Positions 6,224 to 8,496 of a DNA stretch of 34,519 nt are shown here, in pieces. Location of the stretch: positions 1 to 34,519 of IMG/VR virus record IMGVR_UViG_3300045738_002456, one strand, 5' to 3'. Source of the DNA: a virus. The notes beneath the pieces were generated by a model, which saw only the letters and a list, made by a program, of their open reading frames with translations, was not told the DNA's origin and did not search any database. A program made the translations under genes and the position numbers. Numbering within the stretch: position 1 is the first letter of the stretch; every line of letters begins with the position of its first letter.

Positions 6224-6556
6224 ATGACCACCAAGATCACCAGCACCCTGCCCAAGTCCGACGAGACCAACGGCCTCAACCACATCACCGCCGACCTCTG
6301 CGACGACCCCCAGAGCCTCCACGTCGCGATCGTCGTCCTCGACTGCGCCCAGATCACCACCGACATCGACACCGGCGAGTCCATCCCCACCGCCCGCATC
6401 CGCCGCGTCGAAGTCATCGACCGCCCCGAGGACAAGAAACGACTCGGCGACCTCGCCACCAGGGCCTTCGAGACCCGCACCGGCGCCACCGTCCTACCCC
6501 TCGAGCTCGAGGACGAACTCCGCGCAGCCTTCGGCGACACCGACACCGACGACTGA
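6224..6556 (+). CDS. Conserved-looking phage protein of unknown function
   Basis: A 110-residue acidic protein with AAGGAG about 8 bases before its ATG, suggesting stronger expression than the coupled genes upstream. The central part (HVAIVVLDCAQITTDIDTGE, then PTARIRRVEVID) looks like a beta-rich domain followed by a helix with an EDKKRLGDLATRAFETRTG stretch. I have seen this layout in actinophage early genes but cannot attach a function. Codons are strongly C-ending, like the neighbouring helicase. Confidence 0.65.
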   Translation: MTTKITSTLPKSDETNGLNHITADLCDDPQSLHVAIVVLDCAQITTDIDTGESIPTARIRRVEVIDRPEDKKRLGDLATRAFETRTGATVLPLELEDELRAAFGDTDTDD

Positions 6557-6631: not shown

Positions 6632-8095
6632 ATGACCCACGTGTCCTACGACGACACCCCACCACCACCCCCCGACCCCCACGACGGCGGCTACGGGAAC
6701 GTCACCCCACTACGCCCCCACGCCAACACCCACGCCGAAGCCGCCCTCATCTCCGTCATCCTCACCGAACCCGACCGCGCACCCCACCTCCTCGAGCTCG
6801 TCCACCCCGAAGAGTTCTACGAACCACGCCACGAAGCGTTCTGGGCCGCAGCCCAAGCCGTCCTCGCCCAAGGACTCCTACCCGACCACGCCACCCTCAG
6901 CGAACAGCTCGCCAAGACCGGCGACCGCCACAAGATCGACTTCACCACCTACACCACCGCCGGCCAAACCCCACCATCAGCCGCCCAAGCCGACTGGCAC
7001 GCCGAAACCGTCCGCACCCACGCCATCGGCCGCCACGCCACCACCAGCCTCAACCGCGCCACCCTCCAACTCCAAGCCGCCACCGACCCCACCACCCTCT
7101 CCGAAGCCCTCGCCGGCGCCAGCGACACCATCGACCACGCCGTCCGCACCCTCCACAACGCCGGCACCACCAACACCATCCACGTCCCCACCATCGGCGA
7201 CCTCCTCGCCGAAGCCGACGACGAATACGACTGGGTCATCCCCGGACTCCTCGAACACCAAGAGCGCGTCATCCTCACCGCAGCCGAAGGCGCCGGCAAA
7301 TCCACCCTCCTACGCCAGATCGCCATCTGCGCAGCCGCGGGCACCCACCCCTTCACCGGCGAAACCATTACTCCCCAACGCGTCCTGCACGTCGACGTCG
7401 AGAACTCCCGCCGACAGTCCAAGCGGCAGTACCGCCCCCTGCACACCCAAGCCGGCGCCACCTTCGACGACGACCTCCTCCGCATCGAGATCCGCGTCCA
7501 AGGCATCGACCTCACCACCACCGAAGACCGCACCTGGCTGGCCAACACCGTCCGATCAGTCGCCCCCGACCTCATCGTCATCGGCCCCATCTACAAGCTC
7601 GCCAACGGCGACCCCACCGAAGAGGCCTCCTCCAAACCCGTCGCCATGGCCCTCGACCAGATCCGCGCCGACTCCGACGCAGCGATCATCCTCGAAGCCC
7701 ACTCCGCCAAAGCCAACGGCATGAGCAAGAAACGCCCCCACGAACCCTACGGCTGGTCCGGCTGGATGCGCTGGCCCGAGATCGGCATCTTCCTCGACGA
7801 CGACGGCAAGCTCACCCACTGGCGAGGCGCCCGCGAAGAACGCTCCTGGCCCACCGAGCTCAAGCGCGGCGGCACCTGGCCCTGGACCGCGATCCCCTCA
7901 GACGCCGACCGCATCTGGGAACAGGTCCGCACTGCACGCCTCAAGGCCGGCCAACCCATCGGCCTGCGCGGCCTCGAGGAGACCCTCTCGATCTCCCGCT
8001 CAGCCCTGCAGCGCGTCATCGGAAACGGCGGCGCCTACGGCCACATCTGGCCCAGCTACAACCGCAACATCCACCCCGGTGAGGAACGACGATGA
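6632..8095 (+). CDS. DnaB/RepA-like replicative helicase
   Basis: A 487-residue ATPase. Residues about 33-130 resemble the DnaB N-terminal domain (AEAALISVIL, then EEFYEPRHEAFWAA). The P-loop is AAEGAGKST (217-225, Lys223), with a Walker B-like VLHVDVEN near 251 and a DLIVIGPIYKL strand later, as in RepA/AAA_25-type RecA-fold ATPases. The C-terminal 60 residues contain a probable winged helix or HTH (LRGLEETLSISRSALQRVIG) that could bind DNA. GAGGAAGG precedes the ATG. The gene ends directly against the candidate origin, which fits a helicase loaded beside its own gene. The + strand here is very C-rich (row 7021-7080 has 34 C and 10 G by hand count). Confidence 0.82.
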   Translation: MTHVSYDDTPPPPPDPHDGGYGNVTPLRPHANTHAEAALISVILTEPDRAPHLLELVHPEEFYEPRHEAFWAAAQAVLAQGLLPDHATLSEQLAKTGDRHKIDFTTYTTAGQTPPSAAQADWHAETVRTHAIGRHATTSLNRATLQLQAATDPTTLSEALAGASDTIDHAVRTLHNAGTTNTIHVPTIGDLLAEADDEYDWVIPGLLEHQERVILTAAEGAGKSTLLRQIAICAAAGTHPFTGETITPQRVLHVDVENSRRQSKRQYRPLHTQAGATFDDDLLRIEIRVQGIDLTTTEDRTWLANTVRSVAPDLIVIGPIYKLANGDPTEEASSKPVAMALDQIRADSDAAIILEAHSAKANGMSKKRPHEPYGWSGWMRWPEIGIFLDDDGKLTHWRGAREERSWPTELKRGGTWPWTAIPSDADRIWEQVRTARLKAGQPIGLRGLEETLSISRSALQRVIGNGGAYGHIWPSYNRNIHPGEERR

Positions 8096-8101
8096 CCAAC
8101 G

Positions 8102-8122
8102 TTATCCACAGGGTTATCCACT
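8102..8122 (+). promoter_or_regulatory. Two DnaA boxes
   Basis: TTATCCACA at 8102-8110 is an exact DnaA consensus. TTATCCACT at 8114-8122 differs only in the last base. They are in the same orientation, 12 bp apart, at the left edge of the repeat cluster. In this G/C-rich sequence two such AT-richer boxes side by side are unlikely to be accidental. Confidence 0.65.
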
Positions 8123-8302
8123 GTCCCAAACCGGCCCAAAATCCTGGGACACCCACCCTGTCCCAGACCGTCCCACACTCCCTTGGGACACCCTCTGACC
8201 TGCGTAAACACCCCAGCGCAGGGGTGTCCCAAACGAAACACCCTGGGACACATAATTACAGCCTGTTTTTCCCTGCAATCCCGGCTGTCCCAACGTGTCC
8301 CT
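8122..8302. repeat. TGTCCCA iteron-like repeat cluster
   Basis: Seven exact copies of the heptamer TGTCCCA occur in 171 bp: four on the + strand (8122, 8159, 8225, 8286) and three inverted (8145, 8184, 8244). There are also near copies CGTCCCA (8169) and TGTCCCT (8296). Six exact copies form three facing pairs, with starts 23, 25 and 19 bp apart. The last pair extends to 8 bp (GTGTCCCA at 8224, TGGGACAC at 8244). The arrangement suggests binding sites for a dimeric initiator or regulator, or a set of hairpins. Confidence 0.7.
8208..8227. repeat. ACACCCC/GGGGTGT hairpin in candidate origin
   Basis: A perfect 7-bp inverted repeat (8208-8214 and 8221-8227) with a 6-base loop AGCGCA. It overlaps the TGTCCCA copy at 8225, so protein binding and hairpin formation may compete. 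Confidence 0.55.
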
Positions 8303-8306
8303 ACTA

Positions 8307-8346
8307 CGTAGGTGGGCGCAACCCCGCCGCCACACCCCCACCTACG
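8307..8346. repeat. 10-bp inverted repeat flanking the origin region
   Basis: CGTAGGTGGG (8307-8316) and CCCACCTACG (8337-8346) are perfect complements around a 20-base spacer. The left arm overlaps the palindrome CTACGTAG (8304-8311). It could be an operator, a hairpin or a terminator lacking a U tract, and it lies 40 bp before the next gene. Confidence 0.55.
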
Positions 8347-8385
8347 CAGTCGGGAACCACCAAAACCAACCACCAGGAGCACCCC

Positions 8386-8496
8386 ATGAACCAACACCGA
8401 ACACCCACCCTCATCACCCTCATCACCGCCAACCTGCTCGTCTTCGGACTCGCCGTCTACGGCCTCATCCAGCTCATCGGCGCGGTGACCCGATGA
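8386..8496 (+). CDS. Tiny single-pass membrane protein
   Basis: A 36-residue protein that is almost entirely one hydrophobic helix (LITLITANLLVFGLAVYGLI) with a short polar start and an Arg at the end. CAGGAG sits 7 bases before the ATG, the reason to choose this start rather than the in-frame ATG at 8092, which would translate the repeat region. The stop overlaps the next gene by ATGA. Its role is unknown. Confidence 0.55.
   Translation: MNQHRTPTLITLITANLLVFGLAVYGLIQLIGAVTR

Follow-up and report, generated by a model that had tools for sequence, protein, structure and literature searches.

A repeat block behind a DnaB-fold helicase gene of an actinobacterial phage, probably an origin read by the tail of the helicase itself

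Introduction

A cluster of short TGTCCCA repeats lying directly behind a helicase gene in phage DNA raises two questions: does replication start at the repeats, and which protein reads them? The window examined here (the whole stretch of DNA that was analysed, a 34,519-base virus record) has phage genes for terminase, exonucleases and a recombination-directionality-like protein. The original prediction took the interval 8096-8346 to be the phage origin, used by host DnaA together with a separate phage protein that binds TGTCCCA. As set out below, the block is very probably the replication start site, and sequence comparison suggests that the repeats are most likely read by the helicase, acting via a C-terminal helix-turn-helix (HTH) tail.

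Results

Composition of the repeat block

Seven exact copies of TGTCCCA, in both orientations, fall inside 171 bp (8122-8292). The window has 11 exact copies in all, against 4.7 expected for its whole 34.5 kb and hence about 0.02 for a 171-bp stretch; the four remaining copies (2293, 2372, 15515 and 23284) are at chance level. The elements of the block, in order, are as follows.

8102-8110, plus strand: exact DnaA box TTATCCACA (motif search)
8114-8122, plus strand: DnaA box with one mismatch, TTATCCACT (motif search)
8122-8128, plus strand: iteron 1, exact TGTCCCA
8145-8151, minus strand: iteron 2, exact
8159-8165, plus strand: iteron 3, exact
8169-8175, plus strand: near iteron CGTCCCA (from the sequence); an exact copy with the same spacing in the relative L003
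8184-8190, minus strand: iteron 4, exact
8193-8212, plus strand: conserved accessory motif CTCTGACCTGCGTAAACACC; TGACCWGC or GCAGGTCA in 20 of 21 related blocks
8225-8231, plus strand: iteron 5, exact
8244-8250, minus strand: iteron 6, exact
8250-8281, plus strand: A+T-richer patch with TGTTTTTCCCTGCAATCCC (from the sequence), a putative unwinding or loading site before the terminal iteron pair
8286-8292, plus strand: iteron 7, exact, first of the terminal direct pair
8296-8302, plus strand: near iteron TGTCCCT (from the sequence), second of the terminal pair; such a pair is common in other blocks
8301-8346, plus strand: short palindrome CTACTACGTAG and hairpin (arms 8307-8316 and 8337-8346; folding), the end of the block

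The facing iteron pairs are 8122/8145, 8159/8184 and 8225/8244. Everything that the original prediction had named in the interval was thereby recovered: seven exact and two near heptamers in both orientations with three facing pairs, an exact DnaA box and a near copy, a hairpin and an A+T-rich patch, all directly after a DnaB-like helicase gene (6632-8095, DnaB-N plus AAA_25). DnaA-box matches with at most one mismatch number three in the whole window, which is chance level, so that only the adjacency of two of them is notable. The GC content of the block is 59%, compared with 69% for the whole window; GC skew has no clean sign change at the block and is uninformative. Searched as nucleotides against phage records, the interval gave chance matches only.

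Coding status of the interval

The block lies in an open frame of 134 codons (8092-8496), which overlaps the helicase stop. All three reading frames and both strands of this interval contain iterons, and the frame has no match in Pfam or PHROG. Protein-level conservation of the frame, which the original prediction had named as evidence that would count against an origin, was checked in the nearest relative, L003, and was not found: the counterpart there encodes an unrelated product with an early stop. The iteron spacings (14, 25, 41, 19 and 42) are identical in the two, L003 having one extra exact copy. A sharp difference from neighbouring genes at codon third positions had also been claimed. 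The contrast is real, with GC3 of 0.65-0.70 in the frame against 0.83-0.94 in five nearby genes, but it is less sharp than stated, the two genes just downstream being at 0.75-0.78. A protein-coding gene at 8092 was rejected on GC3, on the comparison with L003 and on the presence of iterons in all frames. One probable true small gene is nested in this spurious frame.

8386-8496, plus strand: 36-aa membrane-like product, with AGGAG at 8375-8379

As in iteron-type origins, the repeat cluster is thus well above chance and sits in DNA that is non-coding and A+T-richer than its surroundings.

Blocks in related elements

Relatives of the helicase were gathered from IMG/VR, genome collections, plasmids and phages, and are referred to by L numbers. 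About 20 related elements have a block of the same plan, mostly 6-70 bp past the helicase stop; in L004, L005 and L177 it is 1.2-1.8 kb downstream of the helicase. The treatment of L004 and L005 as exceptions without a block was dropped on finding their blocks 1.3-1.8 kb downstream. The repeat word differs among elements, and was set partly by hand where the automatic 7-mer had shifted in register (L002, L007, L177 and L186).

TGTCCCA: window, L001, L003, L112, L175
TGGCCCA: L008, L173
TGGTCCA: L009, L023, L171, L177, L184
TGTTCCA: L002
TGATTCA: L024, L172, L174, L195
TGTTTCA: L004, L005
TGTCTTG: L007
TGTCACA: L186

The blocks have 4-13 exact copies over 110-330 bp together with an A+T-richer segment, and their GC is lower than that of the locus in every case (52-68% versus 64-72%), only marginally so in L008 and L173. 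In the place of the A+T-richer patch of the window, relatives hold AAAACCGCAGGTCAG or TTTTCCCTGCAATTCC. Most blocks end in a terminal direct iteron pair followed by a hairpin, and a closing hairpin was present at the corresponding place in all 18 blocks examined. The accessory motif (GCAGGTCA or TGACCWGC, often as AAAACCGCAGGTCAG or CTGACCTGCNNAAACNCC) occurs in 20 of 21 blocks, and exact DnaA boxes in five (window, L003, L004, L005 and L177). The view of the interval as an iteron-type origin beside a helicase gene gains support from this comparison, in which spacing, flanking motif and hairpin are kept in about 20 relatives and coding potential is not.

Several further observations concern these elements. 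In six of 18 blocks (L172, L173, L024, L112, L177 and L186) an iteron in minus orientation is placed inside the closing hairpin or next to it, and L195 has one in a neighbouring hairpin. The accessory motif, at 8193-8212 in the window and also seen as CTGACCTGC, has copies in L031-L150, L151-L170 and L254-L283. Beyond these origins, 80 Streptomycetales genomes yielded 61 copies of AAAACCGCAGGTCAG / CTGACCTGCGGTTTT and none of the reversed control, and at least 120 viral contigs had the motif, compared with 68 for the control. A role for AAAACCGCAGGTCAG as a tRNA or attachment marker was set aside, there being no tRNA near 42 loci with AAAACCGCAGGTCAG or the shorter ACCGCAGGTCAG. Genes for VapE-like (D5-type) helicases, a different family, are likewise followed by TGTCCCA blocks that end in a terminal tandem pair and a hairpin:

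L375, 2791-3079
L381, 1585-1763
L397, reverse strand
L400, 6080-6314

The helicase and its C-terminal tail

The gene directly before the block, and the parts of it that bear on repeat recognition, are these.

6632-8095, plus strand: DnaB-fold replicative helicase, the proposed initiator-helicase, with DnaB N-terminal domain, AAA_25/RecA core and C-terminal HTH tail
7901-8020, plus strand: HTH in the tail, residues 424-463, the proposed iteron-reading domain (AlphaFold2 and HTH family matches)
7997-8020, plus strand: recognition helix, residues 456-463, with covarying positions 456, 457 and 460 (column scan of the protein)

The protein matches Pfam AAA_25 (1.7e-27) and DnaB (7.3e-14), and its full AlphaFold2 model matches solved DnaB structures (Foldseek E 1e-14); with both a DnaB N-terminal domain and a RecA-like core, it belongs to the DnaB family. 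The HTH fold of the tail is predicted: modelling of the full protein, and also of the tail alone, gave helices at 424-439, 445-452 and 456-463 with pLDDT of ~84-92. Matches to HTH families were obtained for the tails, HTH_IclR in 13 of 24 and the best being MarR_2 (1.2e-5). Foldseek with the isolated tail returned no significant match, the top hits being mostly HTH proteins. The distance from the WRGxR motif to the C-terminus is 80-95 residues in all block-bearing helicases, versus 24-65 in the others.

Two relatives depart from this domain order. In L112 (3376-5088), weak Toprim (primase-like) matches replace the DnaB N-terminal domain, making a possible primase plus AAA_25 helicase plus HTH. 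L195 (2963-4876) likewise has no DnaB-N match and resembles primase/helicases of Arthrobacter phages; in the Arthrobacter phages Ranunculus and Wilde, the HTH gene is separate and lies upstream of that for a primase-helicase.

Linkage of tail and block, and separate initiator genes

The block accompanies 21 of 23 tailed helicases (L590 included); the other two, L193 and L204, have no recognisable block in the available DNA. Among 83 tailless helicases, not one is accompanied by a block of the TGTCCCA-type plan. Four tailless helicases, that of plasmid pSCL1 among them, have another word in at least five copies downstream; in pSCL1 (L014) this is ACCGTCA, nine times inside 300 bp, starting ~100 nt after the helicase stop.

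Upstream genes divide along the same line. Of 71 genes lying directly upstream of tailless helicases, 38 have a match to the single family PHROG 270 ('replication initiation protein'), and many match further initiation families. Phmmer with the upstream proteins of other loci gave matches in 79 of 83 tailless loci, which is an upper count because a few of those proteins are methyltransferases or similar. The upstream genes of tailed loci gave no initiator match in PHROGs and Pfam (0 of 16), and phmmer over all ORFs of the 23 tailed loci gave a single match, in L195 (3.4e-07, to the upstream ORF of L216), which was not counted as an initiator, being judged a methyltransferase from the L216 sequence. 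The 110-aa gene upstream of the window helicase (6224-6556) was considered as the repeat reader and rejected: it has no family match, and the upstream genes in other tailed loci are unrelated. The separate HTH initiator gene that marks the pSLA2/pSCL1 type was therefore not found in the tailed loci. Initiator gene plus helicase, and helicase with a reading tail, look like two alternative arrangements.

Covariation of recognition helix and repeat word

If the tail reads the repeats, helix and word might be expected to change together. Among 19 non-redundant tailed helicases, similarity of the iteron word gave r = -0.09 with core identity and r = 0.49 with five recognition-helix positions (0 of 5000 label permutations). 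The five positions were picked after seeing the data, so that the independent test is a scan of the 188 variable columns. The top three columns tracking the word were 460, 456 and 457, all within the recognition helix (456-463), which happened in 0 of 5000 shuffles. The best single-column correlation, 0.38, was reached somewhere by 1047 of 5000 shuffles (21%), and it is the clustering of the top three that is decisive.

Arg at 456 goes with TGTCCCA or TGGCCCA (6/6), Gln at 456 with TGATTCA (4/4) and Lys-Thr at 456-457 with TGGTCCA (3/3 non-redundant). L172 and L173, whose cores are 84% identical, pair TGATTCA with the helix PQPSVSR and TGGCCCA with PRSTIQR, respectively. L590, which was found through a DNA search for TGGTCCA pairs rather than through its protein, has a tailed helicase with the helix AKTTVHR; helix and word fit the Lys-Thr rule. 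Recognition is not one-to-one: SRSTVQR-type helices occur with both TGTCCCA and TGGCCCA, and L003 (SKS) has TGTCCCA in common with R-type helices. A core-only tree places the tailed helicases in one clade (SH-aLRT 87) and requires the iteron word to have changed at least 13 times among them.

Discussion

We put at roughly three in four the probability that 8096-8346 is the replication origin of a temperate actinobacterial phage or prophage and that its repeats are read by the adjacent helicase's own tail. This reading draws together the block, its kept plan and non-coding state, the predicted fold of the tail and its tight association with the block, the lack of a separate initiator gene and the covariation of helix and word. 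Copies of the helicase would bind TGTCCCA via their own C-terminal HTH (residues 424-463) and assemble on repeats in both orientations; this assembly may open the A+T-richer DNA that precedes the final pair of repeats, whereupon a DnaB-type ring could load itself at the block and replication would start there. A helicase that reads and loads on its own repeats would need no separate initiator gene. With somewhat less confidence, we also think it probable that a clade of DnaB-fold helicases in actinobacterial phages and prophages gained an origin-reading C-terminal HTH once and so became a stand-alone initiator, and that word and helix have since switched together at least a dozen times, in a readable protein-DNA code.

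The original prediction would have host DnaA open the origin at the two DnaA boxes and another phage protein bind TGTCCCA. The tandem of exact and near box beside the iterons fits this scheme, as do the exact boxes in L003, L004, L005 and L177. With 16 of 21 blocks lacking an exact box, however, DnaA is not a general ingredient, and the role of the boxes is at most accessory. As to a second protein, no helicase-adjacent gene is common to the tailed loci or matches an initiator family, and the covarying helix residues belong to the helicase, which most likely takes the place of the separate binding protein. We consider the DnaA scheme improbable.

The repeats might instead be operators through which the helicase tail or another regulator controls transcription across the boundary between the helicase and downstream genes, or limits initiation, the origin being elsewhere. 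Iteron-binding initiators commonly autoregulate, and both the direct succession of block, hairpin and next gene and the iteron at the closing hairpin in a third of the blocks examined would suit such control. The block is, however, downstream of the helicase gene and not at the promoter of that gene, 1.2-1.8 kb away in three elements, and so many exact copies (4-13 over 110-330 bp) with an A+T-richer segment are origin-like; moreover, the equivalents in the same position in SaPI and SCCmec are origins or putative origins (PMC7581432). An operator role therefore also seems unlikely.

Far less likely still is a centromere-like role, with a ParB- or Par-like protein binding the block as a partition site. 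Centromeres do typically consist of clustered short repeats, and one of the 16 upstream genes of tailed loci is ParB-like, but no par genes recur beside the blocks, and it is with the helicase helix that the repeats covary. Finally, that the interval is part of a coding gene (8092-8496) whose repeats encode a peptide repeat is refuted for practical purposes, the open 134-codon frame overlapping the helicase stop being outweighed by iterons in three frames and on two strands, the unrelated L003 product, the low GC3 and the lack of a Pfam or PHROG match.

In the literature searched, which took in only a minority of subscription papers, we found no description of a DnaB-fold helicase that carries an origin-reading domain of its own; such a protein appears undescribed there, which is no proof of novelty. 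The queries used found no tailed relatives among 50,697 phage and 72,556 plasmid records. Bacterial-type DnaB rings normally need a separate initiator and often a loader. If the reading is right, a helicase of this fold that locates its origin unaided would be a minimal initiation system and would show how the gain of a DNA-reading tail can give rise to initiator-helicases. The pairs of helix and word would then provide a natural series of replicons of differing specificity, suited to direct helix-swap tests of origin specificity, and possibly orthogonal replicons that are compatible with one another for use in actinobacteria.

The proposed arrangement can be set beside several known ones. Iteron plasmids and lambdoid O-protein origins have clustered iterons, an A+T-rich stretch and sometimes DnaA boxes, but there the iterons are read by a separate protein, Rep or O, and host DnaB is recruited by it. 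Phage P4 alpha unites a primase, a helicase and an origin-binding domain in a single polypeptide, with an SF3 helicase and an unrelated primase; L112, with its Toprim-like matches, AAA_25 and HTH, resembles it in this respect, and the window protein has no primase domain. The two-gene modules of actinophages and Streptomyces plasmids (pSCL1; pSLA2-type Rep1/Rep2) have a homologous AAA_25 helicase with no HTH tail and a separate HTH initiator gene directly upstream, whereas the window helicase has the tail. Mycobacteriophage RepA prophage origins, which like the window come from actinobacterial prophages, involve a RepA-like protein with an N-terminal HTH, described in a text that does not use the word helicase (PMC7157519). 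SV40 large T antigen and papillomavirus E1 are helicases fused to an origin-binding domain that read short repeats and load themselves (PMC3401641), but there the origin-binding domain stands on the N-terminal side of the motor, which is a helicase of another kind, and we claim no homology. The closest parallel is with SaPI Rep and SCCmec Cch2, whose C-terminal domains recognise short repeats lying immediately 3' of the genes that encode them, with no separate initiator, a self-reading design that has experimental support (PMC7581432). They and the window protein have in common a C-terminal DNA-reading domain (predicted in the window) and iterons 3' of the gene; their helicases are of the DUF927 and D5/Primase_Cterm kinds, whereas that of the window is DnaB-fold (AAA_25) with a small HTH reader. 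By analogy, the window helicase, which is not a member of the SaPI Rep/Cch2 type, would work in the same way.
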